Assembly (NCBI RefSeq): GCF_013280595.1
Contig: NZ_JAAATY010000010.1
Coordinates: forward strand, 124,001 to 188,000
From: Kibdelosporangium persicum
Lineage (GTDB): Bacteria > Actinomycetota > Actinomycetes > Mycobacteriales > Pseudonocardiaceae
Length of the DNA stretch: 64,000 nt
Reading direction: 5' to 3'
Shown here one piece after another: positions 23,285 to 64,000 of the stretch (the first letter of the stretch is position 1; the number at the start of each line of letters is the position of its first letter). Under the pieces are notes generated by a model. It was given only the letters and a program-made list of their open reading frames with translations, had not been told where the DNA came from and did not search any database. The translations under genes were made by a program, and so were the position numbers.

Positions 23285-25195
23285 CTAGGGGAACGGATGA
23301 GGGTGGGGATTGATGTCGATGACGCCTGACCGGTAGCCGAGACGGTGGGGCACAGTGTGCAGCCGGGGCAGGTTCTCGGTACGCCGATTGGCGTGGCCGA
23401 ACGTCATCGGCAAGGCGCCTGGGATGAGGACTTTCACGCAGCTGAAGCCACCAGCCCGGTGCTCGGGCGTGGTCTGGTCGACCACGATGACGTCCATGTC
23501 CGTCATCAGGTATCGGTTGATCAGCTCGGTGAGGTCGTCGCGCAGGTCCGGGTTGCCGAAGGCAGTGGGCGCCGGAAGGTCCGCGAATGCCCGGGTGGTG
23601 CCTGAGTTCGTGAGGAAGTCCAGACGGGAGAACGTGTCCGGGTGCGCGTAGAGCAAGGCGTGGTCGGCCATCACGGTGACACGTGTGGAGTCGGCGGCCA
23701 ACGCGGCAGCCTCGTCGCGCTGGTGCTCGTAGCGGTGGATGAGGTTGGTGAGGATGGGGCCGAGCTCGCTGATCGCGTTCTCGGCGGCGCGTTCGGGATC
23801 GAGATGGGAACCGGCCGCGCACACGATCTTGGGACGGCCGTCGTCGGCCGGGTTCACGGCCATCACCCACACGCAAGGGATTGCTTGCTCCAGGGTGGTG
23901 TCGAACGCCATCAGCCGGTAGCCGGTCTCCGCCCGCATCGCCTCGACGATCAGCGGGATCGTCCGGTCCCGGGCGGAGTCGAGGTCGATGCGCGGCACCG
24001 GCATGCGGGCGTACCAGGTCATCAGGAACGCGTCTCGCTCGGCCACCTCCAGGATTCCGTACAGGATGGCTTCCTCCAGGCAACTGCCCAGCGCGCAGCC
24101 GTTGGAGATCTCGTAGACGAACGGAGGGTGCGGACTGGCGCGGTGCATCCGGTAGTAGGCCAACGTCTCAGGCACGAGGACGGGAGCGCGGCGTGCGAAG
24201 GAATAGCCCCACACCCAACGATATGACGTGTCCGGATCGAACGGACGGTAACGGAACTCCGGCCGATCATAGGACTCGGCGCTGTGGAGCCCGAACGTGC
24301 GGGGATCCACGGCGCTGTCCTGAATCTCGGAATAACTGGCTTGCACGGCCGTGCGCCGGCCGCCTGGCCGTCCCCCACCGTAACGCTCCAGCCCTTCCAG
24401 GACCGCGATGAGCTGGCTGCTCTGGTAGTTGCGGGTGCGCCCGTAACCGCCCTCCACCACACCATCCCGCAGGCCCAGCCTGGCGGCGGCGACCATCAGC
24501 CCGCCCTCGGTGCCGCGGGTCAGCGACCTGATCAGACCGGTCTCGCCGTCCACATAGGTCTCTTTGAGCGCGTCGAACTCCCGGCCGACCGCACGCACCC
24601 GGTAGATGTCCGGGGCGAGTTTGGTCTGGGGCGTCAGGGAGATCCAAGCCGAGGACTCGCTGTCGTCCGGAAGGTCGCCGCAGTCAGGGCATAGCGGCTC
24701 GGGCAGGAAACGGTGTACCCGCACGCTCAGTGTTTCCAGGTCGACGTAGACCATCGCGTTGCGTGTCCTGGCCGATTCCGGTTCCGTGGCAAAGGTCTTG
24801 ATCTCCTCGGCGACCAGCTCCGCGACGAGATCGGCGGCCAGGTTCGTCAGCCACGCCGACGCCCGATCGGCCAGCGCCTGACCGTGTCGGCTCAGCACCG
24901 AGTCGTGTTCCGCGGCATCCTCACGCGCCCGTCCGCGGCGCAAGTCCGCGCACCGCACGCAACCCGGCACACCCGGTAGCTCGACTGGGCCGACCACCAC
25001 CCGCCCCAACTCGGTGCGCACAGGTAGCCACGCCGTCGCCCGCGCCCGGATCTCGGGGTACTCACGGGTGTCCCAGCCGTCGCTGGCGACAACGAGCACC
25101 GGGCTGACAACACCGTCGAGGCGGGCCGCGATCGCCGTTGCCAGCAGCCCAACGCCGTGCACGGTAACAGGCGCGTTGATCATTGTGTCAGTCAT
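23285..25195 (-). CDS. YcaO-domain azoline cyclodehydratase (thiopeptide, TbtG-like)
   Basis: This 636-residue protein uses ATP to cyclise core cysteines (and possibly Ser/Thr) into azolines. The N-terminal ~200 residues hold two zinc-ligand pairs (CVRCADLRR and CPDCGDL). The YcaO domain follows, with ATP-site segments SQLIAVLEGLERYGG, EAILYGILEVAERDAF and AAENAISELGPIL. The protein ends NPHPHPFP, the proline-rich C terminus (PxPxP) characteristic of peptide-modifying YcaO enzymes. Its start overlaps the RRE-partner gene by 8 bases, and it is the last gene of the thiopeptide operon. Its position corresponds to tbtG. Confidence 0.93.
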   Translation of the reverse strand: MTDTMINAPVTVHGVGLLATAIAARLDGVVSPVLVVASDGWDTREYPEIRARATAWLPVRTELGRVVVGPVELPGVPGCVRCADLRRGRAREDAAEHDSVLSRHGQALADRASAWLTNLAADLVAELVAEEIKTFATEPESARTRNAMVYVDLETLSVRVHRFLPEPLCPDCGDLPDDSESSAWISLTPQTKLAPDIYRVRAVGREFDALKETYVDGETGLIRSLTRGTEGGLMVAAARLGLRDGVVEGGYGRTRNYQSSQLIAVLEGLERYGGGRPGGRRTAVQASYSEIQDSAVDPRTFGLHSAESYDRPEFRYRPFDPDTSYRWVWGYSFARRAPVLVPETLAYYRMHRASPHPPFVYEISNGCALGSCLEEAILYGILEVAERDAFLMTWYARMPVPRIDLDSARDRTIPLIVEAMRAETGYRLMAFDTTLEQAIPCVWVMAVNPADDGRPKIVCAAGSHLDPERAAENAISELGPILTNLIHRYEHQRDEAAALAADSTRVTVMADHALLYAHPDTFSRLDFLTNSGTTRAFADLPAPTAFGNPDLRDDLTELINRYLMTDMDVIVVDQTTPEHRAGGFSCVKVLIPGALPMTFGHANRRTENLPRLHTVPHRLGYRSGVIDINPHPHPFP

Positions 25196-26981
25196 CGAGC
25201 AGTACCACCCGGAACGTGTGGGGCAGGATCTCGTGCGCTTCCTGGTCGTGGTCGAGCGGGACCGCGACCGGACGGTGACCGAGGCCGATCAACGCCCGGA
25301 CGGCCGTCGTCAGGTCAACCGAGGCAGGCAGCGGGGCCACAGGGCCGTCCCGTGTCGGCAGAACGGGAGCTGGCGGCGGGGCATACCCGGTCTGACCGTT
25401 CTCCGTCGCCTGGTAGTGGAGAACGGCCTGTTCGAGCGTGTCGGTGAGCGCCGCGAGAGCGTCCAACCTGGAAGCACAGGCAACTGGTCGATCGTCCAGG
25501 TGACACAGCAAGGTCGGTACGCCGAGTGAGCCGGTGATGTCGTAAACCGTCACGGGGTGGCCAATGGCCGCGAGCATGGCCCGGTATCGGTTGCCCGGGC
25601 CGTCAAGCGGCACTGCGGCGAGGTCGATCAGTCGAGGCGGCTGCTGCTCGGTCATGGTCAACTGCCGGCAGTATCCGGCGAGCCCGGCCTCGACCGCCTC
25701 AAGCCAGCTGTAACCGGCAGCGACCCCGATGGGCGGCTCGTACGGAACCGCCGCGCCGTCCAGTACGGGAAAAGCGAGCGAAACAGGCACCAAAACCGGG
25801 TCCATGGACTCCAGCGCGTACCCCGTCACGCACCCGTCCCGCACCCGTCGACGGTCCACCATCAGGGACCCGTAGCAGGCGAACGCACGCAGAGCCGCAC
25901 GATAGCGCGCTGTGGCGAAGTCCAGGCCGACCCCGGTGACCACCGGCGCAAGCGCATCGGCGCCGAGCAGGCCCACCGGGTCGGACACCGTGATCTCACA
26001 GACACGCAACGGGATCTGCGCCAGATCGCGCTCGCTCGGCTCACCGAGTAACCCGATGACGTCGTCGGTGCACACGGCTGCCTGCCGGGAGAACATCTCT
26101 GGATCGACGTCGGCGACGGTGATGTCCGGGGTGGTCGGAACAACTGGTCGCGCCAGCGGATGCGGGACGACCGCGTGCGTTTGATCCTCCAAAGTAGACA
26201 GGTCAATTCCGGTGAGCCGATCTGACCGTGGCTCGTCCAGTCCGGTGACGGCCCGGAAGGTGCCGTGCACCAACCGGGCGGCCACGGCAGTGATGGCCGC
26301 TGTCCCCAGTCCCCGGCCGTCGGGCTCTGCCCGGTGCCACGCGGCCAAGCGCCGCCGAGCCGAGCCCCACAGCTCGGTCTGTCCCGGTCCGGCGACGCCG
26401 AGCCAGGCGTGAGCGCCGCGGAGTACGACCTGCGCGCGCCAACCGTGGTGCCACTGTTCGAGCCGTTCGGCGTCGCTGAACTCGGTGGCAACGTGCAGAA
26501 CCAGGTCCACGCCGTCCACGAGTGCACCACCCATAGTGGACGATCTGACGACATGGGACAGCCCGGACCGCGCCGCCGCATGGACAACAGCGGACGCCAC
26601 CGGGCCTTCACCCAGCACCAGCGCCCGCATGCCCTGATACCTCTCGAATGCCCGGCCGGGATCATCGTCGAAGTATCCGAGGTAAGTGATCTCCGGCCGG
26701 GCCGACGAAGCGTCCACCACCGATGCGGCCGGACTCATGTCACGCACGACGTCGCGATCCCGCAGCATCCCGACCAGCTTGCGCACCGCCTCGGCACGCT
26801 CCGCGGCGAGACCAGCGGTCAGCTCGTCGAGGGTGTGTGAACCGTCCAGATAGGGCGTCAGCCGCTCGATGAACCGGTGCACCGAGTGTCCGGTGAGCCG
26901 GACGGGACCGCGATGGGTCAGCAGATAGGCCCCGTCCTCGGACTCGGCCAGGTAGACGTCAGGTCGCAGCAGTGGACGCAT
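25188..26981 (-). CDS. RRE-containing Ocin-ThiF-like cyclodehydratase partner (TbtF-like)
   Basis: This protein of about 597 residues presents the leader peptide to the YcaO enzyme. The N-terminal ~85 residues look like the winged-helix peptide clamp (RRE): YLAESEDGAYLLTHRGPVRL, then HRFIERLTPYLDG and a helix-rich LVGMLRDRDVV. The middle is a degenerate E1/ThiF-like fold (VLGEGPVASAVVHAAARSGL), and the C-terminal part is specific to Ocin-ThiF proteins. ATG 26981 has GAGGAG eight bases upstream and was preferred over GTG 26990, which overlaps the dehydrogenase stop. Position corresponds to tbtF. Confidence 0.85.
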   Translation of the reverse strand: MRPLLRPDVYLAESEDGAYLLTHRGPVRLTGHSVHRFIERLTPYLDGSHTLDELTAGLAAERAEAVRKLVGMLRDRDVVRDMSPAASVVDASSARPEITYLGYFDDDPGRAFERYQGMRALVLGEGPVASAVVHAAARSGLSHVVRSSTMGGALVDGVDLVLHVATEFSDAERLEQWHHGWRAQVVLRGAHAWLGVAGPGQTELWGSARRRLAAWHRAEPDGRGLGTAAITAVAARLVHGTFRAVTGLDEPRSDRLTGIDLSTLEDQTHAVVPHPLARPVVPTTPDITVADVDPEMFSRQAAVCTDDVIGLLGEPSERDLAQIPLRVCEITVSDPVGLLGADALAPVVTGVGLDFATARYRAALRAFACYGSLMVDRRRVRDGCVTGYALESMDPVLVPVSLAFPVLDGAAVPYEPPIGVAAGYSWLEAVEAGLAGYCRQLTMTEQQPPRLIDLAAVPLDGPGNRYRAMLAAIGHPVTVYDITGSLGVPTLLCHLDDRPVACASRLDALAALTDTLEQAVLHYQATENGQTGYAPPPAPVLPTRDGPVAPLPASVDLTTAVRALIGLGHRPVAVPLDHDQEAHEILPHTFRVVLLDD

Positions 26982-26986
26982 CCTGA

Positions 26987-28369
26987 TCACTCCTCAAGCC
27001 GGCTGCCGAGCATGAACTCCCCCACGCTGCTTTCCGTGGCGTGGTCCAGGCCGGTCGCCTCGGTGAAGGCCGCCGCATCGCCGCCGCCGAGCCCACAGGC
27101 GGCCAGCCCCATGGCGGTGGCTGCCAGATACATGGTCTGGTAGAGCACTCCGACGTGTTTGAGCACCAACGCGTACGGCAGCTCCTCGTAGGTGTACATC
27201 AATCGGCCGAACCGGGCCGCGAGCACGATCAGCACCTGAGGCGGACGCTCCGCGCTCGCCGACAGCGCCGCGGACCGCAGCAGCCGCGCCACCTCGGGGC
27301 CCGGCTCACGGACCAGCCGCAGCCGGTGCTCGTGCCGGTCGTAGTGGTACATGCCGGGATTCAGCCCGGAAGCCAGCCGCACCACTGGGTACAGCTCCAG
27401 TTCGTAGACCGATCCACCGGCGGGGTACGGCAGCTTGAGGTGCTCGACACCATCGGCCTCAAAGGCCCCGCGGACACCCGAGCAGCGATACAGCAGCTCA
27501 CCGAGTTGCTCCGCGGTGATCGGGTGATCGTCGTCGTGATTGCGTCGGCTGCGCCTGTCCTCCACCACCGCGGTCAGCGGAGGATCGTTGTGGCGCAGGT
27601 CATCCAGGTTGGGCCGGGACAACTCGACGGCCGGACCGGGATAAGGGTCGTGGCGCGCGGGTGTCGGGTCGAAGGTTCCCTTGGCCCACTTTGTCCGGCC
27701 GTACCCCATGCCCGCGTACCCGCCGTTGCCCTGCCGGGACCTCCCATGGAACCACAGCTCGTGCGGCCGCCATTGGCGCAGCCGAGGCTCGTCCTCGGCG
27801 TCATCGGCTGGTACGGCCAGCCCGGCGCTCCGCAGGTCCGCCAGTAGCTGAGTCACGAGGTGATCAGGCAGTCCACTGTGGACGGCATTGACCGCGGCGG
27901 TGCTCACCAGCGCGGCGAGCACAGCCGACACCGCCCGATCGTGTACCCGCACGGTCGCCGTCGCCAGCGGTGACTCCACAACCAGGTCATCGCCTTCCCG
28001 GTGCAGGACGGTAAAGCGGGACAGTACAACCGCTTCGTCCGTGGCAGGCACGTCAGGCGATGACCGAAGTGGCTGCACGGTATACAGCGACCGGCCGGCC
28101 CAGCACACGGTCGTCACCAGCCAGCCATCGGCGTGCAGCGTCGCCAGCAGAGTCTTCACCTCGGGGGACTCGCTGCCGGGAAGGTCGGCTACGGCGCAAG
28201 GCCGCTCGGCCAGCAGGCGCAGCGCGGCCCGGCCGTCGTCGCCCAACTGGCCGAGCGACACGCTTTCCGGCCAGTGCTGAAAACGCAGCAACGTCACCGT
28301 CTGCTGCTCGCCGGTCACGCTGTAAACGCCGGGACGCAGTCCATACAGTCGCTCAACGGCAGTGTTCAC
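26987..28369 (-). CDS. SagB-type FMN azoline dehydrogenase (TbtE-like)
   Basis: This protein of about 460 residues oxidises azolines to thiazoles. The start is a GTG overlapping the previous stop (GTGA). The N-terminal half (1-~230) is a domain with little homology. The nitroreductase fold follows: VVEDRRSRRNHD contacts FMN phosphate, SGLNPGMYHYD lies mid-domain, and LKHVGVLYQTMYLAATAMGLAACGLGGGD is the catalytic and FMN-binding stretch, with the Lys-Tyr type residues of McbC-like enzymes likely in LKH and LYQ. It is fourth after the dehydratase in the operon. Confidence 0.9.
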   Translation of the reverse strand: MNTAVERLYGLRPGVYSVTGEQQTVTLLRFQHWPESVSLGQLGDDGRAALRLLAERPCAVADLPGSESPEVKTLLATLHADGWLVTTVCWAGRSLYTVQPLRSSPDVPATDEAVVLSRFTVLHREGDDLVVESPLATATVRVHDRAVSAVLAALVSTAAVNAVHSGLPDHLVTQLLADLRSAGLAVPADDAEDEPRLRQWRPHELWFHGRSRQGNGGYAGMGYGRTKWAKGTFDPTPARHDPYPGPAVELSRPNLDDLRHNDPPLTAVVEDRRSRRNHDDDHPITAEQLGELLYRCSGVRGAFEADGVEHLKLPYPAGGSVYELELYPVVRLASGLNPGMYHYDRHEHRLRLVREPGPEVARLLRSAALSASAERPPQVLIVLAARFGRLMYTYEELPYALVLKHVGVLYQTMYLAATAMGLAACGLGGGDAAAFTEATGLDHATESSVGEFMLGSRLEE

Positions 28370-29418
28370 AGCGCGGCCAGTTCCAGCGCGGACACGTCGT
28401 ACTGGTCCTCCACGGTGTTCGCGGCCAGGTGGCACATCAGGAACCGCTGCCCCGCCGGAACCCCGAGCCTGGTCAGCTGGAGGTACGTGTAGTTGATCAG
28501 CAGCCGGGACAGTGCGAACGCGGTCGAGTCGCGCAGGCGTGCCCATCTCGAACCGGCTACCAGCGCGGCGTGGAACGGGCTCGCCGTGCTCAGACGGGAA
28601 TTCGCACCGGAGTCCAGCGGCGGCAGGGAGAACTCGTACCGGGCCACCAAGTCCTCGGCTCGGCTCCGATAGCGCCGCAACAGATCGACCCACTCCCGTA
28701 CGAACGGAACGGCCTCAGGCGAGCCGTCGACGGTCGCCACGACTCCGGCCAGCCGAGCGGCGAGCGTGGCCGAGTGCAGGCGGTAGTGCCGGTCCCAGCC
28801 GTCGCGCAGCATCGCGTTCTCGGGACGTCCGTTCAGGAACGCCTCCGCGTGCGAGCGCAGTGCGACGAACCCGTCCTTGATGCCCACAGTGGACAATCCG
28901 TGCACTGCCGCGACGATCAGGTCGAACGCGAGCATGAGCCGCTGCCCCCGACCGGACCGTTCGGTCATCCGGAACGAGATCGGCGTCGTGTCGGCGTAGA
29001 AGTCGGCGAGCAGGCCGGCCATCGCCTCGTTGCCGAGCACCTCCACTCGCCGGTCGTAGTGGCCCAGGCGCAAGGAGTTGTTGGCAGGCCACGGTGTCAG
29101 CGGACCGCGCTCGTTCTCCGCCTCGGCGAGCCTGCGATGATCCGCCAGCACCTCAAGCGGATCGAGCCGCCGGGTGGACGGGTTGCGCTCCAGCCAGCCG
29201 CCGACGATCCGCTGAGCCGCCGGGAACACGGAACGGTGCACGGTGTCCTGGTCAGCCCGCACGTTCAGCCTGAGGTGCGGACCTTGCCGCCAGTGCCGTG
29301 TCCACGACAGCGCGCCGACCTGCCCGGCCAGCTTGTCGAACAACGGCCGCACCGCCTCCAGGATCAGCGCGTCCTTGTCGTCGTCGTGGTAGTAGACGTG
29401 GATGGTGTGCCAGTCCAC
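28366..29418 (-). CDS. Thiopeptide pyridine synthase, formal [4+2] enzyme (TbtD-like)
   Basis: This 350-residue protein with a GTG start is a stand-alone LanB C-terminal-like protein. WHTIHVYYHDDDKDALI opens the domain and RHWRQGPHLRLNVRAD is the conserved peptide-binding strand. The C terminus (YTYLQLTRLGVPAGQRFLMCHL) lacks the HL..NR signature kept by its neighbour, so elimination chemistry is unlikely. Position after the elimination gene corresponds to tbtD, whose product joins two dehydroalanines into a pyridine and expels the leader. Assignment between this gene and 29422-30327 rests on order and motif, and could be reversed. Confidence 0.75.
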   Translation of the reverse strand: MDWHTIHVYYHDDDKDALILEAVRPLFDKLAGQVGALSWTRHWRQGPHLRLNVRADQDTVHRSVFPAAQRIVGGWLERNPSTRRLDPLEVLADHRRLAEAENERGPLTPWPANNSLRLGHYDRRVEVLGNEAMAGLLADFYADTTPISFRMTERSGRGQRLMLAFDLIVAAVHGLSTVGIKDGFVALRSHAEAFLNGRPENAMLRDGWDRHYRLHSATLAARLAGVVATVDGSPEAVPFVREWVDLLRRYRSRAEDLVARYEFSLPPLDSGANSRLSTASPFHAALVAGSRWARLRDSTAFALSRLLINYTYLQLTRLGVPAGQRFLMCHLAANTVEDQYDVSALELAAL

Positions 29419-29421
29419 TGC

Positions 29422-30327
29422 TCAGCCCCTTCCCGCGGCGAGCTGCCCGACCGCCTGCGCGGCGCGGCGGCGCAGGACGTCCTCCTCCGCCAGCGATACG
29501 CCCAGCCGGTTGCACACCAGATGGGCGCAACTGTTGAGCACCCGGAACACCCGCCGGGACTGGGCGACACCGGTGTTCTCCAGTTCGCCGGACAGCGTGC
29601 CGACCGATCGTGCCCACCGCAGCAGCATCCCGTCGCCGTCGATGCCTCGCCACTCCCGGGCAAGTACGTACATGCGTTTGGTCAACTCGACGAGCCGCGC
29701 TCGTTGCTCCTCGGTGGCTTCGGCGGGTTCAGGTTGGCCGGTCAACAGCGGGAAATCGCGCGTCCACTCGGCCACCAGCGCCGGGTCGTCCACGGCAGCG
29801 AACCACGCCAGCGGCATCATCGCGGCCGCGGCCGTGCTGCGGTGATCGGCCGTCGGCTCCGTAGCCAGGAAATCAAGCACGATCCGGCTGGATTCGGCGA
29901 AATGACGCTCCACGGCCTCGATGGTCCCGCCGTGGCCGTACTTGGCGTGTTCGCGCTCGTACGGGAAGAACGACAGCGAGTTGTTCGGATACATCTCCGC
30001 CGGGTACGGCGCGTTCTCCACGGCGGACAACCAACGCGCGGTCTCCGAGTACTCGTCGGCCGTCATCCGTTCGGCCGCGGGATTTTCGGCGAAGTACTTC
30101 TCGAAACGTTCGAGCATCAGGCGCCGCACCTCGGCGGCGGATTCGCCGGCCGGCAGCACACGCAGCCGCAGGTGCGGTCCACCGGCCCAGTAGCGGAGGA
30201 AGAAGTGATGCGTGGCCAGTCCGGCGCCGGTCAGCTCGGCGACCAGCGGCGCGGTCACGTCGAGCAGCAGCCGGTCCAGGTCACCGTGGTAGAAGGCATG
30301 TCCGCTCACCCACGCGTTATCCGGCAT
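29422..30327 (-). CDS. LanB-type glutamate elimination enzyme (TbtC-like)
   Basis: This 301-residue protein starts at an ATG overlapping the end of the large dehydratase gene by 11 bases, with GGAG seven bases upstream inside that gene. It carries LanB elimination-domain hallmarks: FFLRYWAGGPHLRLRV, FPYEREHAKYGHGGTIEAVERHF and the C-terminal SCAHLVCNRLG, matching the HM..NR region of NisB. It should remove glutamate from glutamylated Ser/Thr to give dehydroamino acids. It forms a split dehydratase with the next gene upstream. Confidence 0.8.
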   Translation of the reverse strand: MPDNAWVSGHAFYHGDLDRLLLDVTAPLVAELTGAGLATHHFFLRYWAGGPHLRLRVLPAGESAAEVRRLMLERFEKYFAENPAAERMTADEYSETARWLSAVENAPYPAEMYPNNSLSFFPYEREHAKYGHGGTIEAVERHFAESSRIVLDFLATEPTADHRSTAAAAMMPLAWFAAVDDPALVAEWTRDFPLLTGQPEPAEATEEQRARLVELTKRMYVLAREWRGIDGDGMLLRWARSVGTLSGELENTGVAQSRRVFRVLNSCAHLVCNRLGVSLAEEDVLRRRAAQAVGQLAAGRG

Positions 30328-32962
30328 CGCGGTGCTCCGGTTCGGAGAGCTCGACGAGGTACTCGGTGACATGGGATTCGGCTTCCTCCGGGTCCGGTAA
30401 CGCCTCCGCGAACACCACGACGTTGCCCGCGCCCGCCAGCATCCGCTCGAACACCGCGACCAGATACCAGTTGGCGAAGTCGACATAAACGGGCTTGCGT
30501 GATTTGCTGAAACCCCAGGAGAACGGATTTCCTGCCCTTGGCCCCTCGTCGGTACGCATCTGGACGAAGCACCTCAGCGGAATTCCGTTGGTACGCAGCC
30601 AGCCGGTCACCCGCACCCAGTAGTTCGCGTCAGTCTCGCCCTTGTCGCGCCTGGGTACCGCGTCCTCCCGCGCCACCCACCGCGCCCGCTGCAGCACGAC
30701 CCGGCCGACCTCGACCCGCGGCCGGGCGACGACCTGCCGTTCCCCCACCGACTCCACGATCGGCGACAGCATCGACAGCGCCGTCGTGTGCAGATAGTGG
30801 GCCGCACCGAAGGTGTAGGTGAGCAGTCGCGCCGCCGGCGGCAGCATGACGTCGGACATCATGCCCAGGTGCACCGGCCGCACCTGCACTCCCCGACGCT
30901 TCCAGACCAGCCGCACCAGGTCGGTGCGCGGGTCGTGCACCACGACAAGCTCGCCCAGCCGGATCCGCTCGGCGGACGGCCGGTCGCTGACCACGCCTGG
31001 ATAGTCGATCTCATAGGGAAGGCTCGGCGGACGGCGGTTGGCCGACGAGGCGAACGCACCGCGCACCTCGGCGAGCACAGGTTCGCCTCCAGGTGACAGC
31101 CAGGAGCCGTCAGGCGGCGCCACTTCTCCCGCCTGGGTGATGATCTGGCGCACACGGCTACGGCCGCGTCCGTAACCGGTCTGCGCCACGTTGAGCACGA
31201 GCCGAACCGCCTCCCCGTCCGGGATGGCCTGCACGTAGCAGCCGAGCGAACCCGGCGGCATCACCCACTCCGGCCAGCGTGCGACCAGTTCGGCGACCGC
31301 ACCGCCGTCCACCCGGATCACGCCGTCGTCCGGATCGTGGCCGCGCATCGCCTCGCCCGCCTCGCGGCGGATCGCGACCAGCTCCCGCAGGCGTGGCAAC
31401 GGGCTTTTCACCAGCTCGGTGGGCAACATGACCAGGGCGTTGGCCGCCATCGACGCGACCGCCTCGGCCGCCAGCGTCCGTTCGGCTCCCTCGCCGCGGG
31501 TCCGTTCCTCGTGGATCGCGCGGTGCAGCAGGAGGAACGGGATCTCGCTGCCTGGCCCGAACCGTTCGCCGCAGTACGTGCCCAGCGCCAGCCGCCATGG
31601 CATCGCGACGTCGAAGGCACCCGTCCAGCGCCGCACGACGTCCAAATCGGACAGTGCGGTGCGCCAGCGCGAGATCGGCTCCACCACGACGGTTCCGCGG
31701 TAGACCGCGTTGTCGCGGAACTGGTACCGCTCACGGGTCTGCGGCGAGTCCAGACCCGCGAGGCCGGCGAGCTCGCCGACTGCCCGGTGCAGTTCGCTGA
31801 GCCGGGCCTGGTTTCCGTCGACGTCCTCGACGGAAATGGCTTCCCCCATCAGGGTGCGCACACCGGTGGCGGCGGCCGCGAGCTCGGTCCCGGGCTCGCC
31901 ACCCCGTGACAGCCAGGCCGCCAGGTCTCCCAACGGGTCCGGCGCGAGATCGGGCAGCGGGACCAGTCGCTCCAGCAGACCGGCGTCCACCAGACCGTCG
32001 ACGAACCGCTCGACACGCGGCGTCTCGGCGCTTTCCTCGGTCAGCTCGGCGACCAGATCCGCGGCCGGGACAGTCCGGTCGCCGAGGATTCGCAGGGTTT
32101 CCCGGATCACGGGGGCGGCCGGCACGGAGACCACCGGCTCACGGGCCGTCGTGCCGACGAACATCACACGATCGTCGTGCAGGGTGATGCTCGGGTTGGC
32201 ACGCACAGGCATCGCCGCCGACAACCTCGGATCATTACGCAGCCCACGCGTCAGCAGATGCAGCAGCCCGCCGTCCAGTTCGGTGACGCCCACCACGGCG
32301 CCTTCCGGCTTCTGACGTGTGTCGTCGTCGGCTTCGGACCAGGTGCCCAATCCGCTGACAGTGAACGTACTCAGCGGGCTGGTCTTGGCCACCGCCCTGG
32401 CCACGTACTTGGCCAGCCTGATCAGCGACTGCCGCTGCGGGCGCCGCCGGCCCGACAGCCACTTCGACAGTTCACCCGACAGCGCCGGGCTCGCGTGCGC
32501 CAGCGCCCGTTGGAACTGTGGCCGCGCGGCGACGGCACGCAGTTCGAGGTCCTTGGCGGCGAGTTCGGCGACAAAAACGTCCGGCAGCGCTGTGGCTACC
32601 CGTTGCACCGTCCTCAGCGTCACGATCCACTCGCGTACCCGGTCGACAACGTCGGCGGGTAGCGCGGCGACGATCTGTTCGTTCCATTCGCGGCCAGACG
32701 GTGGCCGTACCCGGTGCAACGCGCGGCGCAGACCTACCAGTCGTGGTCTGTCGGCGTCGCCAGCGGTCCCGATGATCGCGTGCAGCTCGTCGGCCAGCGC
32801 GTTTCCCTCGGCGTGCAACCACGCACGGTCTCCGGCAAGCCGGTCGACCAACGCGAAGGATTCCGCGAAACGCAACTGCCGCAAGGCGTTCGCCGGCAAC
32901 CCGGCGGTGCGCACCACGAACGAACCGTCCACACGCGCGCCGGTGGGCAACGTGATGTGCAA
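30317..32962 (-). CDS. tRNA-Glu-dependent Ser/Thr glutamylase, LanB N-terminal type (TbtB-like)
   Basis: This protein of about 881 residues transfers glutamate from Glu-tRNA to core Ser/Thr. Typical Lant_dehydr_N stretches are FAESFALVDRL near the N terminus, AKYVARAVAKTSPLSTFTVSGLG, and a long helical body with FGPGSEIPFLLLHRAIHEE. The best start is TTG 32962, since GAGGAGG lies just upstream and homology begins there; an ATG 126 bases further up would run through the hairpin region into the precursor gene. It lacks the elimination domain, supplied separately by the next gene. Confidence 0.88.
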   Translation of the reverse strand: MHITLPTGARVDGSFVVRTAGLPANALRQLRFAESFALVDRLAGDRAWLHAEGNALADELHAIIGTAGDADRPRLVGLRRALHRVRPPSGREWNEQIVAALPADVVDRVREWIVTLRTVQRVATALPDVFVAELAAKDLELRAVAARPQFQRALAHASPALSGELSKWLSGRRRPQRQSLIRLAKYVARAVAKTSPLSTFTVSGLGTWSEADDDTRQKPEGAVVGVTELDGGLLHLLTRGLRNDPRLSAAMPVRANPSITLHDDRVMFVGTTAREPVVSVPAAPVIRETLRILGDRTVPAADLVAELTEESAETPRVERFVDGLVDAGLLERLVPLPDLAPDPLGDLAAWLSRGGEPGTELAAAATGVRTLMGEAISVEDVDGNQARLSELHRAVGELAGLAGLDSPQTRERYQFRDNAVYRGTVVVEPISRWRTALSDLDVVRRWTGAFDVAMPWRLALGTYCGERFGPGSEIPFLLLHRAIHEERTRGEGAERTLAAEAVASMAANALVMLPTELVKSPLPRLRELVAIRREAGEAMRGHDPDDGVIRVDGGAVAELVARWPEWVMPPGSLGCYVQAIPDGEAVRLVLNVAQTGYGRGRSRVRQIITQAGEVAPPDGSWLSPGGEPVLAEVRGAFASSANRRPPSLPYEIDYPGVVSDRPSAERIRLGELVVVHDPRTDLVRLVWKRRGVQVRPVHLGMMSDVMLPPAARLLTYTFGAAHYLHTTALSMLSPIVESVGERQVVARPRVEVGRVVLQRARWVAREDAVPRRDKGETDANYWVRVTGWLRTNGIPLRCFVQMRTDEGPRAGNPFSWGFSKSRKPVYVDFANWYLVAVFERMLAGAGNVVVFAEALPDPEEAESHVTEYLVELSEPEHRDAG

Positions 32963-33026: not shown

Positions 33027-33233
33027 TCAGTCGGTACCGCAGGAACAGCAGCAGTCCCACGTGGTTCCGCTGCAGCCCGAGCAGCCACCGCCAGGCGCGG
33101 AACACGACGCGCCGTTCTCCGCCATGCCGTGTCCCGCGGTCAGCGACTCGACCGTCAAGCCACTGTCCACAATGTCGAACACGTCCATCGGAAGATTCTC
33201 GAGATCGAAGTCCAACCGTCGGGAAGTGCTCAT
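33027..33233 (-). CDS. Thiopeptide precursor peptide, 68 residues
   Basis: ATG 33233 has AGGAG seven bases upstream. Residues 1-42 form a classic thiopeptide leader, including LPMDVFDIVDSGLTVESL and TAGHGM, ending NGA. Residues 43-68 hold the Ser/Cys/Thr-rich region: SCSAPGGGCSGC (43-54) then SGTTWDCCCSCGTD (55-68). The last 14 residues align with the nosiheptide core SCTTCECCCSCSS at Ser1, Thr3, Thr4, acidic 6, Cys7-9, Ser10 and Cys11. Known thiopeptide cores are about 12-18 residues, so a 26-residue region is unusual. It is the first gene of the operon. Confidence 0.93.
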   Translation of the reverse strand: MSTSRRLDFDLENLPMDVFDIVDSGLTVESLTAGHGMAENGASCSAPGGGCSGCSGTTWDCCCSCGTD

Positions 33234-33825: not shown

Positions 33826-34731
33826 TCAGCGACGCCCCGACCACCCTGTGTGGAGCCACTCGGCCAGTTCCGGGGGCGCGAGCTCGGCCACCCGGCGGGT
33901 GTAGCGCTCGATGGCCGCCGGGTCGAGCAGGTCCAGCCACTTGCCGCTGGTGCCGGACCGGAAGAAGTCCTTGTTGTTCCGCCACAGGTTCGCGTCGACG
34001 CCGGGAGCCAGTTCGTCGGCCCGCTCGCGCATGCGGTCGAAGGTCGCCGCGGCGGCGAGGTGGTCGATCCGCCGCGGACTGGCCTCGATCGACAGCGCGG
34101 TGGCGAGACGCCGCAACTGGCCAGGCAGATCGGCCTTGAGGTCCGCGTAGTGGAACAGCGCCACCCGCGGGTCGTCGCGGCGTTCCCAGAACGTCCGTAC
34201 GTGGTGGACCAGGTTGGCCAGCGTCACCCCGAACGTGGCCGATTCGGGGGCGAAGTCCGCCTCGGCCCACAACCAGAACCGCTCAAGCGGATCCGGTGAG
34301 GGTGGCTGGCTGACTTCGGGAGGGAGACCGGCCGACGCCACGGCGTCAGGATGCATGTTGGCGACGGCGTTTTCGAAGGACAGCATGGCATCGCGCGGAT
34401 CACGCGCGACGCAGACGTACGTCACCCCCGCCTCGAACGGCAAGCCGTCGAGCGGCGTGTGCGTCTTGACGAAGCGCCGGTGCTGCTGGCTCTCCAGCTC
34501 GGCCAGAATCGCGGCGGTGTCGAACGTCACCGCGTCCAGCCATGGCGAGAGCTCGGTGAGCGGGCGGCCGAAGTCCGCGGTGTCCAAGATCAGCAACCCG
34601 CACAGCATCTGCATCCAGGTGGTGCCGCACTTCGCCGGGGTGCTGATTACGACGTCCCCGTCGCGGATCCGGAAGTCGGCCCACAGGGCGCTGTCGGACA
34701 CAATCGTTCGATACCGCCGCAAATCAGCCAT
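33826..34731 (-). CDS. PAPS-dependent sulfotransferase
   Basis: This 301-residue protein starts at an ATG with GGAG seven bases upstream. The 5'-phosphosulfate loop is STPAKCGTTWMQ (residues 30-41), the 3'-phosphate site VARDPRDAMLSFENAVANM, and the C-terminal nucleotide loop RSGTSGKWLDLLD. These match Sulfotransfer_1 enzymes that sulfate small-molecule hydroxyls using PAPS. It is on the same strand as, and directly upstream of, the thiopeptide operon, and might sulfate a Thr or Ser side chain of that product or a compound from another pathway. No PAPS synthesis genes are nearby. Confidence 0.87.
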   Translation of the reverse strand: MADLRRYRTIVSDSALWADFRIRDGDVVISTPAKCGTTWMQMLCGLLILDTADFGRPLTELSPWLDAVTFDTAAILAELESQQHRRFVKTHTPLDGLPFEAGVTYVCVARDPRDAMLSFENAVANMHPDAVASAGLPPEVSQPPSPDPLERFWLWAEADFAPESATFGVTLANLVHHVRTFWERRDDPRVALFHYADLKADLPGQLRRLATALSIEASPRRIDHLAAAATFDRMRERADELAPGVDANLWRNNKDFFRSGTSGKWLDLLDPAAIERYTRRVAELAPPELAEWLHTGWSGRR

Positions 34732-35051
34732 CTCAGCTCTCCGACTGCCGGCTCGTCCGCGCTGGACGCGTTTCAGGATGCCACGCCGGTGGCAGGCCGG
34801 CCACCAGGAAAGTGCCGCGGCCGGATCTCTTCGAGGACCTGGCCGGGCGCGAACGTCGTGGAAAATTTCGCAAGCGCAACAGGTCACACGGCAGGCACCT
34901 GATGCGTTCACTGAGGTTCTCGCCGAGAAGGTGGCCGGGCCTGGTCGCTGTCTCCTGGTAGTAGCTCGCCAAGTGGCCCGGCTCGCGGCAAACGCCGTGG
35001 ATCGCCTCGCTGGGCATGGTCCTGCTCGATTCGATCCTCTTCGACAGCCGT
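34732..35051. other. 320-base intergenic stretch, no supported gene
   Basis: A 94-codon minus-strand frame (34733-35017) exists, arginine-rich with two CxxC-like cysteines, but it lacks a good ribosome site and resembles no family I know. I see no strong hairpin or promoter beyond what the downstream sulfotransferase would need. Confidence 0.35.
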
Positions 35052-35417
35052 TCAGGCGGCGACGAACAGTAGTCCGGCGGCGCCTGCCTCGACGACGAAG
35101 TAGAACCAGATCGGGTAGAAACCGGTCGGCGTGTCGAGCAGCCGGGACACGACCCGGCCGAACGCCATCCCTGTCAACGCGAGGCCGACCGTGATGACCA
35201 CGCCGGTGCGGATTCCGTTGACGTCGACGGCAGCGAGCGCCAGCGCGGCTGCGACGGCGATCCCGAACCCGCCATAGACCGCGCGGATCTCCGACCTCGC
35301 CTCCGGGTGGTCGGCGCGGATCCGGAAAGGACGGGCCAGCGCGGCGGGCATTGCCAGCGCGTACCCGCCCATCCCCAGAAAGAAGACACCGATCACGATG
35401 ATCACCGCGCTTGCCAT
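35052..35417 (-). CDS. DUF4345-type small membrane protein
   Basis: This 121-residue protein has four hydrophobic segments (VIIVIGVFFLGMGGYALAM, FGIAVAAALALAAV, TGVVITVGLALTGMAFG, FYFVVEAGAAGLLFVAA). The pattern RADHPEARSEIRAVYGGFGIA in the first loop is typical of DUF4345. Function unknown. It diverges from an AraC regulator and may be its target. Confidence 0.75.
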   Translation of the reverse strand: MASAVIIVIGVFFLGMGGYALAMPAALARPFRIRADHPEARSEIRAVYGGFGIAVAAALALAAVDVNGIRTGVVITVGLALTGMAFGRVVSRLLDTPTGFYPIWFYFVVEAGAAGLLFVAA

Positions 35418-35473
35418 GTCCGCCCCCGCGTCGTGTTTCGCCCGGCTTTTCCCATGATGCGATCATCACGGTC

Positions 35474-53824: not shown

Positions 53825-53872
53825 CCTCGTGAGTGTTTATCAGGGTTCTAACCCTGACAAACACTCACGAGG
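53825..53872. repeat. Long hairpin repeat, copy 2, overlapping the PKS stop
   Basis: CCTCGTGAGTGTTT (53825-53838) pairs with its complement (53859-53872). After one mismatch, TCAGGGTT pairs with AACCCTGA around a CT tip. The outer arm extended to CCTCGTGAGTGTTTATC is identical to copy 1 over 17 bases and the centre GTTCTAAC is the same. It sits between convergent genes and its right arm supplies the last PKS codons and stop (53865-53870). Confidence 0.85.
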
Positions 53873-56800
53873 GGTTGGTGGGGGTTTCGAATTCGCTGTC
53901 GAGGATGTCGAACAGTTCGTCGGCGCTGGCGGATTCGAGCCATTCCTCGTTGGACGGCGTGTCCGCCCCGTCGGTCCACTTCGCGGTCATCACACGCAGC
54001 CGGGCCAGGATCTTCGTGTGCTGGTCGTCGCCCGGCTGGGCGGCGGTGAGGGCTGCCTCGATCGCCGACAGCTCCTCGTCCAGCGGTGAGGCCTGCTCGT
54101 CGACCAGTTCCTCCAGCAGGAGACCGGCGATGGCGGCCGGGGTCGGGTAGTCGTACGTGAGCGTCGCCGGCAGGCGGATCTCGGCCACCTTGGCGAGCCG
54201 GTTGCGCAGTTCGAGCGCGGCGAGTGAGTCCACGCCGAGTTCCACGAAACCACGAGTCGGTTCGATGGCACGCGGCCCGTCGTGACCGAGCACGATGGCG
54301 ACGTGGGTGCGCACGAGCTCCAGCAGGTACGGGGCACGTTCCTTGGCCTGCAACGCCGTGAGGCGCTCGGACAACGGCACCTCGACCGGCTCCGCGGCCG
54401 CGGTCCGGCGCTGCGGCGTGCTGCGCACCAGGCCTCGCAACATCGCGGGCGCGGGCTGGTCGATCACGGCGGTGTCCAGTCGCATCGGCAACACCACGGC
54501 GGCATCCAGGCCCAAGGCGGCGTCGAACAACGCCAGTCCGTCCTCTGTGGACAACGCCTTCATGCCCGCGCGGCTCATCCGTCGCAGGTCCGCCTCATCG
54601 AGCGCGCCCGCCATGCCCGTGCGCTCCGCCCACAGCCCCCACGGGAGGGATGTCGCGGGCAGCCCGAGGGCGCGCCGGTGAGTGGCCAGTGCGTCGAGGA
54701 AGCCGTTGGCGGCCGCGTAGTTGCCCTGTCCGGCGCCGTCGAACGTGCCCGCGGCGGACGAGAACAGCGCGAACATCGAGACCTCGCCGACGAGCTCGTG
54801 CAGGTTCCAGGCGGCGTCGACCTTCGGTCGCAGGACGGCGTCGAGCCGCTCGGGTGTCAGCGACCCGATCAGGCCGTCGTCGACAACGCCCGCCGCGTGA
54901 ACGACACCGCTCACCGGGTGCTCGGCCAACAGTTTGGCGACGGCGTAACGGTCGGCGACGTCGCATGCCACCACTACCGCCTCGGTACCGAGCTCGGTGA
55001 GCTCGGAGACGAGCCGGTCCGCGCCCGACACGGCCGGGCCACGGCGGCTGACCAGCACGAGTTTGCGGACGCCGGGCCGCGCCGCGAGGTGCCGGGCGAC
55101 CGCGGCGCCGAGCCCGCCCGTACCTCCGGTGATCAGAACCGTGTCGCCCGGTTCGAGCGGCCGACCGCTTCCTGTCGCCGGAGTGAGCCGCGGGGCGCGC
55201 AGTTCGCCGGGTCGCACGTGCAGTTCCGGTTCGCCGGAGCTCAGTGCGGCAGGCAACTCGGCGTAGGCGTCACCTTCGAGGTGCACGAGCACGATCCGGC
55301 CGGGGTTCTCGGCCTGCGCGGCACGAACGAGGCCGGTGACGGCTCCGTCGATCAGCTCGGATCGCCCGGTGACCACGACCAGTGTCGCGGAGGCACAGCG
55401 GTCATCGGCAAGCCATTCGGTGAGCAACGCCAAAACGTCCGCGGTCACCGAATGCACTGCGGTGACCACATCGTCCACAGTGGGCGAAGGGAAGTACAAC
55501 ACCTTGTCGGGACACGGATCGGTGAGCAGCGAGGACAGGTTCGGATAGGCGGGCGAGTCCAGGGGCGCGTCGCCGATGACCGCCCATCGCTCCTCAGCTG
55601 CCTGCCCACCTGGCACCGGGATCAGGTCGACCGTGAACAGGTCGCGAGTGCTGACCCGGTTGTCGACGGGGCGCACCACGAGTTCGTCCACAGTGATCAC
55701 CGGGGCACCGGCCGGGTCGGTCGCGGTGATCGAGCGGCTGGTGGCGCCGGAGCCGGTGAGCCGGACCCGCAACTGGGTGGCACCGGTCGCGTGCAGGGTG
55801 ACTCCGCGCCAGGCGAACGGCATCGTCAGCTCGTTGTCCTCGGCGAACAGTTCGGCCGGGTGCAGCGTGGCGTCCAGCAGGGCGGGATGGATGCCGAACC
55901 CGGTCGTGGTCGCGTTCTCGGGCAGACCGACCTCGGCGAAGATCTCCTCGCCACGTCGCCACACGGCACGCAACCCGGTGAAGAGCGGGCCGTAGTCGTA
56001 GCCCTGACCGGCGAGAAGTTCGTACAGTTCGCCGATCTCGACGGGTGTGGCGTCCTCCGGTGGCCACGTGAGGGCGGGAGCGGGCGTCGCCTGGGGCGCA
56101 AGGAATCCGCTCGCGTGTTTGGTCCATGTCTGCTCGCGCTCGGCGCGGGCGTACACGGTCACGGCACGGCGAGCTTGCGCGTCTGGCTCGCCGACGACCA
56201 CCTGGAGCCGCACAGCTTCGCGGTCGGTGAGCGAAAGCGGCGCTTCGAGCGTGAGTTCGTCAACGCGGGGGCACTGGACTTCGTCACCCGCGCGGATCAC
56301 GAGTTCCACGAACGCGGCACCGGGCAGGATGACTGAGCCGCCCAACCGGTGCTCGGCGAGCCATGGCTGGTTGCGTACGGACAGTTGTCCAGTCAGGGTG
56401 ACTGTGTCGGCCTCGGGCGAATGCACCACGGCCGCGAGCATCGGGTGGTCCGCGGCATCCTGTCCCGACGACGTCACGTCACCCGCGCTGGGTGCTGGTT
56501 CGAGCCAGTAGCGGCGGTGCTGGAACGGGTAGGTCGGCAGGTCCGCCAGCCCGGTGCCCGGCACCAGGGCGGCCCAGTCCACGTTGACCCCGCGCGCCCA
56601 GGCTTGTCCGACCGCGCTCACGACCGTCTGGACCTGATCACGATCACGGCGCTGCACCGGCACGAACGCAACGTCTTTGCCTTGCACGCATTCCGGACCC
56701 ATGCCCGACAGCACCGCGTCCGGCCCGATCTCCAGGAACGTCGTGACGCCCCGGTCGGCCATCCGCCGGAGCGTATCCATGAACAGCACCGGCTCCCGCA

Positions 56801-59800
56801 CATGCGACACCCAAAACTCAGGACTCGTCACATCTCCAGCAGCAATCACCGGCAGCATCGGCGCACCGAACGCGACCTTCTCCACCGTCCGACGGAACTC
56901 GTCCACCATCGGGTCCATCAACGACGAATGAAAAGCATGCGACACCCGCAACCGCTTCCACTTACACCCCAACCGCCCGACCACAGCCAAAACCGCGTCC
57001 TCCACACCAGACAACACCACCGACACCGGACCGTTCACCGCCGCAATCGACACACCCTCACCCAACAACGGCACAACCTCAGACTCACCAGCCTGCACAG
57101 CAACCATCACACCACCCGCGGGCAACGCCTGCATCAACTTGCCGCGAGCACTCACCAGGGCACAGGCGTCGTCCAACGACAACACACCCGCCACATGCGC
57201 CGCCGCAATCTCACCAATCGAATGCCCACCAACACAATCCGGACGCACACCCCACGACTCCAACAACCGGAACAACGCCACCTCAACCGCAAACAACGCA
57301 GGCTGAGTGAAGCCAGTCTGATTCAACGCCTCAGCATCATCACCCCACATCACCGACCGCAAACCACCATCCAAACGCGACAACACGTCATCCAGAGCCC
57401 CAGCGAACACCGCGAACCGGCCGGACAACTCACGCCCCATCCCCACCCACTGCGAACCCTGACCCGAGAACACAAAACCCACGCCGCCACCGGACACCGA
57501 ACCACGCGCCACACCCGCGATCTCGCGGCCTTCGGCAAGCGCGGCCAGCCCGGCTCGCAGCTCCGCACGGTCGCCTCCGGTCACCGCCGCACGGTGTTCG
57601 AACCCGGTTCGCCTGGTCAACGCCCGGCTGACGTCCGCGGCCCGTGCACTGTCGACCACCGGGAGCAACCGCCCTGCCTGGTCCAGCACCGCCTGCTCGG
57701 TCTTGCCGGACAGGATCAACGGCACCACCGGCGGATCGGCGGTCTCCGCCACCGCGTCGGCAGCGGGCGGCTCTTCGAGGATCACGTGCGCGTTGGTGCC
57801 GCTGATCCCGAACGACGACACTCCGGCGCGGCGCGGCCGGTCGGCGTCCCAGGAGACGGCCTCGGTCAGCAGCTCCACCGCTCCCTCGGTCCAGTCCACG
57901 TGTGTCGAGGGCCGGTCCACGTGCAGCGTCTTCGGCAGCATCCGGTGCCGCATGGCCATGATCATCTTGATCACACCGGCGACGCCCGCCGCGGCCTGCG
58001 CGTGCCCGAGGTTCGACTTGATCGACCCCAGCCACAGCGGCTTTTCTCGATCCTGGCCGTAGGTCGCCAGCAACGCCTGCGCCTCGATCGGATCACCCAA
58101 CGTGGTGCCAGTGCCGTGTGCCTCCACTGCGTCCACATCGGACACAGTGAGCCCGGCGTCGGCCAGCGCTGCCCGGATCACCCGCTGCTGCGACGGCCCG
58201 TTCGGCGCCGTCATCCCGTTCGACGCACCATCCTGGTTCACCGCCGAACCACGCACGACACCCAGCACCCGATGCCCGTTGCGGCGCGCGTCGGACAGCC
58301 GCTCCAACAGCAGGATTCCGGCGCCTTCGGACCACGCGGCACCGTCCGCCGCGGCCGCGAACGACTTGCACCGCGCGTCCGGGGCGAGCCCGCGCTGCTG
58401 GCTGAAGTCCACGAAGATGTCCGGCGTGGACATCACCGTCACACCGGCGGCCAACGCCAGCGAACACTCACCAGACCGCAGTGACCGCATCGCCCAGTGC
58501 AACGCCACCAGAGACGACGAACACGCCGTGTCCACTGTGACCGCAGGGCCTTCCAGGCCGAAGGTGTACGCGATGCGGCCGGACACCAGGCTGCCACCGC
58601 TGCTGCTGCCCACGTAGTCGTGGTGCATCAGCCCGGCGAACACACCGGTCTGGCTGCCGCGCAGCGAGGCCGGGTCGATCCCGGCGCGCTCGAACGCCTC
58701 CCACGACAGCTCCAGCAGCAACCGTTGCTGCGGGTCCATTTCCAGCGCCTCACGCGGCGAGATCCCGAACAGGCCGGGGTCGAAGGCGGCCACGTCCTCG
58801 AGGAACCCACCCTGGCGGACGTACGACTTGCCCGGCACACCCGGCTCGGGGTCGTACACGCCGTCGACGTCCCAGCCACGATCCCGCGGGAACCCGGAAA
58901 TCGCGTCCACCCCGCCGGAGACCAGCCGCCACAAGTCCTCCGGCGACGTGATCCCGCCGGGGTACCGGCAGCTCATCGCCACGATCACGATCGGATCCTC
59001 GGTGGACTTGACGGTGGCCGAGACCGGCGCGGGCGTGCTCTCGACCGAGCCGAGCAGCTCGTCCCGCAGGAATCCGGCGAGCACGAGCGGCGACGGGTAG
59101 TCGAACACCAGCGTCGCGGGCAGCCGCAGGTCGGTGGCGGTGTTGAGCCGGTTGCGCAGCTCCACGGCGGTCAGTGAGTCGAATCCCAGTTCCTTGAACG
59201 CCCGGTTCGGCTCGATGGCGTCGCCGCTGCCGTGGCCGAGCACGGCGGCGACGTGCGTGCGTACCAGGTTGAGCAGCTGGCGCTCACGTTCGGCTTCGGG
59301 CAATCCCGCCAGACTGCGGCGCAACGAGTCGACGTCGGCCGGCGCGCCGGCGACGCCACGGCGCGTGACGGGCACCAGGCCACGGAAGATGGGCGGAAGG
59401 TCCGCGCCTTGCGCGCGCAGACCAGCCAGGTCAAGCCGGACGGGTGCGACGACCGGATCGCTCTGCGACACCGCGGCGCCGAACAACGCCAGGCCGTCCT
59501 CTGTGGACAGTGCGGTGACCCCGTCGCGGCTGATCCTGGCGTGGTCGGCGGCGTCGAGGTGGCCGGTCATGCCGCTGGCCTGCGCCCAGAATCCCCACGC
59601 GAGCGACTGCGCGGCCAGCCCGTGCCGCCTGCGGTGGCGAGCGAGCGCGTCGAGGTAGGTGTTCGCGGCGGCGTAATTGGCCTGCCCGGCGCTGCCGGTG
59701 ATCCCGGCGAACGACGAGAACAGCACAAACTGCGCCAGGTCCAGATGCTGCGTGAGCTCGTGCAGGTGCCAGGCGGCGTCGATCTTCGGGCGCATCACGG

Positions 59801-62800: not shown

Positions 62801-64000
62801 GTTCCCGCTGCGCCGCCACGCTTTCCTCAACGGGAGGTTGCTCCAGGACCACGTGCGAGTTGGTGCCGCTGATACCGAACGACGACACGGCGGCCCGTCG
62901 CGGGCCGTCGGTGTCCCATGGCACCGCGTCAGTCAGCAGCTCGACCTGCCCGGCGGTCCAGTCCACGTGTGGCGACGGCGCGTCCACGTGCAGTGTCCGC
63001 GGCAGCACGCCGTGCCGCATCGCCATCACCATCTTGATCACACCGGCGACACCGGCGGCCGCCTGGGTGTGCCCGAGGTTGGACTTGACCGATCCCAGCC
63101 ACAACGGCCGTTCCCGCTCCTTGCCGTACGTCGCCAGGAGAGCCTGTGCTTCGATCGGATCGCCGAGAGTCGTACCGGTGCCGTGCGCCTCCACGGCGTC
63201 CACATCGGACGGTTTGAGCCGGGCGTCGGCCAGCGCTGCCCGGATCACCCGCTGTTGCGACGGGCCGTTCGGGGCGGTGAGCCCGCTGGAGGCGCCGTCC
63301 TGGTTCACCGCGGTTCCCCGCACGACGCCGAGCACCCGGTGCCCGTTGCGCCGTGCGTCGGAAAGCCGTTCCAGGAGCAGAATCCCGGCGCCTTCGCCCC
63401 ACGCGGTGCCGTCCGCGGCGGCCGCGAAGGCCTTGCACCGGGCGTCGGCCGCCAGCCCGCGCTGCAAGCTGAAGTCGATGAACGTTTCCGGTGTGGACAT
63501 CACCGTCACACCACCGGCCAACGCCAGCGAACACTCCCCCGACCGCAACGACCGCACCGCCCAGTGCAACGCCACCAACGACGACGAACACGCCGTATCC
63601 ACAGTGACCGCAGGGCCTTCGAGGCCGAGCGTGTAGGCGATCCGGCCGGACAGGACGCTTCCCGCAACGCCGTTGCCGATGAATCCGGCGACCTCCTCGG
63701 GAATATCGCGCATCCACGAGCCGTAGTCGTGGTACATGACACCGGCGAACACCCCGGTGGCCGTGCCGCGCAACGAGCCCGGATCGACACCGGCCCGTTC
63801 GAACGCCTCCCAGCACACCTCCAGCAGCAGCCGCTGCTGCGGGTCCATCGCCACGGCCTCACGCGGCGAGATGCCGAAGAACGCCGGATCGAAGTCCGCC
63901 GCGTCGTGCAGGAAGCCGCCCTCGCGCACGTACGACTTGCCGGCCTTGCCCGGCTCCGGGTCGTACAAGCCGTCGACGTCCCAGCCGCGATCGGCCGGGA
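53865..64000 (-). CDS. Type I polyketide synthase, two complete-to-near-complete modules, 5' end beyond window
   Basis: At least 3,370 residues are encoded. First module: KS (about 64000-62840; [22 protein letters not shown]), AT (62560-61650; GHSQGE and YASHS, methylmalonyl type), DH (61480-60650; [20 protein letters not shown]), KR (60110-59560; LDD, so B-type; SSFAG, NYAAAN), ACP (about 59180; GFDSL). Second module: KS (59015-57760), AT (57500-56600; GHSIGE and HAFHS, malonyl type), DH (56460-55650; [17 protein letters not shown]), KR (55150-54600; VDD), ACP (about 54230; GVDSL). The tail (54090-53868) is a docking domain, with no thioesterase. All active-site residues seen are intact, so each module should give a trans double bond; the pair predicts a methylated diene. 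Open at the right edge. Confidence 0.95.

Follow-up and report, generated by a model that had tools for sequence, protein, structure and literature searches.

The 64,000-nucleotide stretch of DNA analyzed here (the window) almost certainly contains an intact thiopeptide cluster. We give an even chance to the account that best explains it, a complete thiomuracin-type cluster with an oversized core that would be closed between Ser43 and Ser64 into a 62-atom macrocycle. On ring size, we favor 62 members over either 35 or 26, with the chances for and against it about balanced.

The precursor peptide gene (A) lies on the minus strand at 33233..33027 and encodes 68 residues that read MSTSRRLDFDLENLPMDVFDIVDSGLTVESLTAGHGMAENGA and then SCSAPGGGCSGCSGTTWDCCCSCGTD before the stop codon. 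Translation begins at an ATG at 33233, seven bases downstream of an AGGAG, and ends at a TGA at 33027-33029; a longer open reading frame from 33290 is probably the same frame, merely starting at an earlier in-frame ATG. Residues 1-42 form the leader and residues 43-68 a 26-residue core (33027..33107 with the stop codon, minus strand), whose start was placed by the Ala-Ser junction of relatives. The precursor matched NF033399, the NCBIfam model for the thiomuracin/GE37468 family precursor, at 65.5 bits (cut-off 29). Its core is long for that family because 58 precursor residues span 50 profile positions in the alignment. The precursor is single in its genome, where the sole further match at E up to 1 had an E of 0.26 and an internal stop. 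Serines occur in the core at positions 43, 45, 52, 55 and 64. Cys stands before Ser52, Ser55 and Ser64 alike; the next residue is Cys again for Ser64 but Gly for Ser52 and Ser55. When re-read from the sequence, the residues, coordinates and serine spacings given in the initial annotation were all correct. Its view that the gene encodes a precursor of thiopeptide type, unusual in its core and located near a pyridine synthase, was supported. It had also raised the prospect of a sequencing error. Neither of the two remaining reading frames across the core region encodes a Cys-rich core, so no simple frameshift conceals an ordinary core, and we rejected a frameshift or sequencing error as the source of the odd core. 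The third position is G or C in 20/26 core codons.

Downstream of A, genes B to G follow on the minus strand in the order A-B-C-D-E-F-G with little or no gap, in a compact set of about 10 kb. Gene B (30317..32962; start codon uncertain) encodes a TbtB-like tRNA-Glu-dependent glutamylation protein (PF04738, 7.2e-34) that has 25-48% identity to the B proteins of relatives and no NCBIfam match at 0.001. Gene C (29422..30321) encodes a TbtC-like elimination protein (PF14028, 8e-39; TIGR03891, 106.4 bits, cut-off 48.45), D (28366..29418) a TbtD-like pyridine synthase of 350 residues (NF045556, 449.9 bits, cut-off 325) and E (26987..28387; start uncertain) a SagB/TbtE-like azoline dehydrogenase (TIGR03605, 153.4 bits, cut-off 78.4). 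The product of F (25188..26990) is an ocin-ThiF/TbtF-like F-protein that matched TIGR03693 below its cut-off (2.2e-23); it is 27-48% identical to the F proteins of relatives with the same gene order and is probably the leader binder. Finally, G (23285..25195) encodes a YcaO/TbtG-like cyclodehydratase (TIGR03604, 376.4 bits, cut-off 219.25) that is 60% identical to its homolog in L036, an Allokutzneria. The same B-G genes co-occur in many relatives. Judged as a pyridine-containing thiopeptide cluster, the locus has azole enzymes (YcaO and SagB-type proteins over their cut-offs, the F-protein under that of TIGR03693), a split LanB dehydratase (PF04738 and PF14028, with TIGR03891 over cut-off), a leader-core precursor (NF033399 over cut-off) and a [4+2] pyridine synthase with conserved residues (the NF045556 equivalog over cut-off).

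The synthase aligned over its full length with TbtD (5wa3; 2e-72) and with PbtD (2.4e-56). In an alignment of loci up to L110, with L042 left out, it retained all 33 positions that 27 or more of the 28 relatives share, including Tyr312. This Tyr312 matches TbtD Tyr319, a residue reported to be key to TbtD catalysis (PMC12018205), and aligns with Tyr319 of the synthase of L100, which has a thiomuracin-type core. The closest synthase was that of L096 (54%). We dropped a synthase tree as a guide to ring size because the window's synthase had no supported place in it. Thiomuracin and GE2270 clusters (Tbt, Pbt) share with the window the leader type, an NF033399 precursor, the enzyme set and a TbtD/PbtD-type synthase; however, cores of thiomuracin/GE2270-type relatives have 15-16 residues, whereas that of the window has 26, lacks a C-S-C at residue 11 and carries a Gly-rich stretch near its front.

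To place the start of the core, we turned to the precursors of relatives, which were gathered with a leader profile and whose neighborhoods were each scored for D. A serine directly follows the leader-end alanine in 40/40 precursors from clusters with a synthase and in 2/8 from clusters without one; the profile was seeded with Ala-Ser-type leaders, which may inflate the 40/40, although the same profile also found the synthase-less set. This count rests on 50 loci. Precursors, 50 in all, came from 46 of them (40 in clusters with synthase, 8 in clusters without and 2 assigned to neither group); the other four loci (L121, L124, L125 and L126) gave none at E up to 1e-4. L108 was assigned its synthase by hand, as the gene sits on the neighboring stretch L121. 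Of the two precursors in neither group, one comes from L094, which has an internal deletion and lacks a synthase, and the other from L110, a lactazole-type locus whose synthase had diverged beyond the threshold; both have Ala-Ser. Left out of the count were second copies of the same genome stretch (L044, L048, L051, L053, L054, L055 and L056), overlapping stretches (L122 and L123), truncated loci (L047 and L112) and precursors known only from 3-kb loci, the last because their neighborhoods were not fetched. Ten distinct precursors came from 3-kb loci, and in four of them the residue before Ser is other than Ala; the L127 precursor has Thr before Ser at its leader end. In L094 (genome G921), the precursor is followed by a remnant similar to B residues 3-172 joined directly to G residues 430-636, as if the middle of the cluster had been deleted.

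The Ala-Ser junction in 40/40 synthase-bearing relatives led us to take Ser43 as the N-terminal pyridine serine, which on sequence grounds it very probably is. That Ser43 is the first residue of the product is likewise well supported and agrees with thiopeptide cyclization, in which the leader is eliminated as an amide (PMC7210931). Since Ser43 is the serine after the leader alanine, residues 43-54 would most likely stay in the product, as part of the ring rather than of a discarded leader. The model with 12 extra leader residues that are thrown away, one of two in the initial annotation, is disfavored both by the Ala-Ser junction and by the alignment of all 26 residues with the core of the relative L041.

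The partner of Ser43 would then set the size of the ring. Closure at Ser64 (+21) gives 3 x 21 - 1 = 62 atoms, at Ser55 (+12) 35 and at Ser52 (+9) 26; a Ser55-Ser64 pair (+9) would also give a 26-membered ring. The sole C-S-C of the window core is centered on Ser64, core residue 22. Among the 40 synthase-bearing relatives, a strict C-S-C is present in 27/40 cores, [CS]S[CS] in 33/40 and neither in 7/40. Exactly one C-S-C is found in 19/40, at residue 6-14, several of these being near-identical GE2270-type cores; in 6 of the 19 (residue 6-9), the motif serine is probably not the true ring serine. Because Cys-Ser-Cys occurs in only 27/40 relatives, there is room for closure of Ser43 with Ser55 or Ser52. 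The persiathiacin core SCTTCECSCSCSS has Ser8 as well as Ser10 in C-S-C (PMC11406533, in excerpt), and the motif is thus a guide rather than proof, a rule that can mislead. Furthermore, for LazC an azole preceding the second Dha may be sufficient (PMC7210931), which weakens the C-S-C argument because Ser52, Ser55 and Ser64 can all have a preceding azole. The initial annotation had suggested, as its other model, a ring at another serine pair; it was right in kind, although the best-supported pair, Ser43-Ser64, was absent from its list.

All thiopeptides known in 2020 were reported to have 26- to 35-membered rings (PMC7210931). The literature searched, mostly titles and the starts of abstracts, named no natural thiopeptide ring larger than 35 atoms, which is weak evidence of absence given its thin coverage of subscription journals. 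Formation of a 62-membered ring is nonetheless feasible, because lactazole and Mro enzymes have made rings that large. Lactazole enzymes built one from a 10-residue insertion, although ring formation in vitro dropped as ring size rose (PMC7210931); this variant of the engineered lactazole scaffold (FIT-Laz) has the size predicted here, whereas the excerpts give the natural lactazole ring as 32-membered. Pyritide enzymes (MroA-D), whose synthase is of the same class, built 62- and 68-membered pyritides and tolerated 14-68-membered rings in vitro (excerpts of PMC9247985). The natural pyritides A1 and A2 are described there as 14- and 17-membered, and the window cluster differs from a pyritide set of B, C and D in also having the azole enzymes E, F and G. 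One relative, L118, has B, C and D with no E, F or G found within the 20 kb examined, and is possibly pyritide-like.

Other relatives also have C-S-C motifs far into their cores. The synthase of L096 (genome G963) serves two different precursors that lie near it, both with C-S-C at residue 14, which would give 38 atoms if used. Five Kutzneria loci (L032-L034, L038 and L039) have long Gly/Ser/Cys-rich cores beside pyridine synthases, with Gly/His/Trp-rich tails in 4/5. The first C-S-C is at residue 22 in K. viridogrisea L032 and at residue 11 in the other four; that of L032 may be there by chance because its core is Ser-rich.

The alternative that survives best, though we consider it unlikely, pairs Ser43 with Ser55 in a 35-membered ring with a 13-residue thiazole-rich tail. 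Cys54 precedes Ser55, which may suffice for a LazC-like synthase, and 35 atoms is within the natural range, equal to the largest natural rings reported in the excerpts; engineered lactazoles have accepted tails of up to 18 residues (PMC7210931). However, Ser55 is followed by Gly, whereas Ser64 has Cys on both sides. The precedent of thiostrepton and nosiheptide also counts against closure at Ser55: in both, a second Dha, located in the tail and preceded by a thiazole, is left out of the ring.

The initial annotation had put first a nosiheptide-like, 26-membered ring between Ser55 and Ser64, with the leader and 12 further residues expelled. The last 14 residues of the core resemble nosiheptide SCTTCECCCSCSS (Ser, Thr-Thr, an acidic residue, CCCSC), with SGTTWDCCCSC in register with SCTTCECCCSC. 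An azole at ring position 2 appears dispensable, as lactazole is described without one there (excerpts of PMC7210931). The window core departs from the SCTTCE of series e (nosiheptide, persiathiacin), however, in having Gly for Cys2, Trp for Cys5 and Asp for Glu6, with 12 residues before. In a shuffling comparison of the window core with 39 chosen cores, the highest ranks went, in descending order, to L041 (z 3.8), L107 (3.7), L105 (2.9) and nosiheptide (2.9); the p value for nosiheptide, 0.010, carries no correction for the 39 comparisons. The likeness to nosiheptide is therefore real but modest, fourth after three relatives whose clusters lack D. Moreover, the L041 core aligns with the full 26 residues of the window core and not just with the final 14. 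The 26 residues thus act as a single core, and there is nothing special about the nosiheptide match. Further objections are the Ala-Ser junction in all 40 precursors counted from synthase-bearing clusters and the contig's lack of a radical SAM match, and a Ser55-Ser64 ring is improbable.

The draft genome has 30 Radical_SAM matches, none of them on the precursor's contig, whereas series e is expected to have radical SAM indolic-acid genes nearby; we rejected the cluster as a nosiheptide relative on this ground. The sole P450 match in the window is some 13 kb away, surrounded by genes of the polyketide cluster. Among the translated matches, a subset of those obtained from the genome families, the class and genome_contigs (14 loci), none had a core nearer to that of the window than the ones named here. 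The genomes covered were 390 of the window's family and 394 of its class, and 341, 394 and 354 of the families of G578, G705 and G1437, respectively, in partly overlapping sets. PLSDB plasmids gave no match, and 12 matches in viral contigs to a nucleotide pattern encoding CCCSCGTD were taken for chance.

A Ser43-Ser52 ring, 26-membered with a 16-residue tail, is slightly less probable than the Ser55-Ser64 ring. Cys51 precedes Ser52, and 26 atoms is among the natural sizes given in excerpts of PMC3917276, but Gly follows Ser52 and more residues would fall in the tail than in the ring. The three cores most similar by shuffling come from synthase-less clusters (only azole enzymes were found for L041), and the L105 and window cores have CSGTT..C.SC.TD in common. 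Given this likeness, the core could have been taken over from a linear peptide and might not be a substrate of the synthase. Nevertheless, a linear product without pyridine, carrying azoles and dehydroalanines while the synthase stays inactive on this core, is the least probable outcome, as the synthase exceeds its family cut-off, keeps every conserved position and is placed inside the gene row, and Ser43 is kept. Goadsporin-type linear peptides share YcaO azoles and split-LanB dehydration with the window cluster but lack the pyridine synthase that is present here. Four relatives (L105, L106, L107 and L114) have B, C, E, F and G with no pyridine synthase found and acidic C-terminal precursor tails; their products are probably linear azole/dehydroalanine peptides.

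For the preferred Ser43-Ser64 ring, the synthase, with its conserved residues retained, and the full enzyme set are encoded. By analogy with the family's known pathway, the YcaO protein, F-protein and dehydrogenase would convert Cys to thiazoles, the split dehydratase would yield dehydroalanines, and the pyridine synthase would couple two of these and expel the leader as an amide. Ser43 would be the N-terminal partner and Ser64, with a thiazole on both sides, the second. With these partners, the 12 extra residues would lie inside the 62-atom macrocycle, leaving a short Thz-Gly-Thr-Asp tail.

That the product is a natural 62-membered trithiazolylpyridine thiopeptide, one of a set of actinobacterial clusters (L032, L096 and others) with synthases closing rings of more than 35 atoms, falls somewhat short of an even chance. 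If true, natural thiopeptide ring size would be far less restricted than isolated compounds suggest, and the cluster would offer enzymes that evolved to make large peptide rings; in the literature excerpts, such rings came from enzymes working outside their natural range. Ring size is reported to track target, with 26-membered rings acting on the ribosome/L11, 29-membered rings on EF-Tu and 35-membered rings on a target unknown in 2014 (excerpts of PMC3917276). A natural ring of ~62 atoms would be shaped differently and might act on another target.

A separate polyketide cluster adjoins at 36421-63968. It includes a PKS protein of at least two modules (53865-63968), which may extend beyond the window, together with a penicillin-amidase-like hydrolase, an AMP-binding enzyme, an EryCIII-like glycosyltransferase, an aminotransferase and the P450 match (~46.8-47.3 kb), and its product is possibly a glycosylated macrolactam. 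A sulfotransferase domain (PF00685, 6.3e-36) at 33826-35469, upstream of gene A and likewise on the minus strand, could belong to either the thiopeptide or the polyketide cluster.
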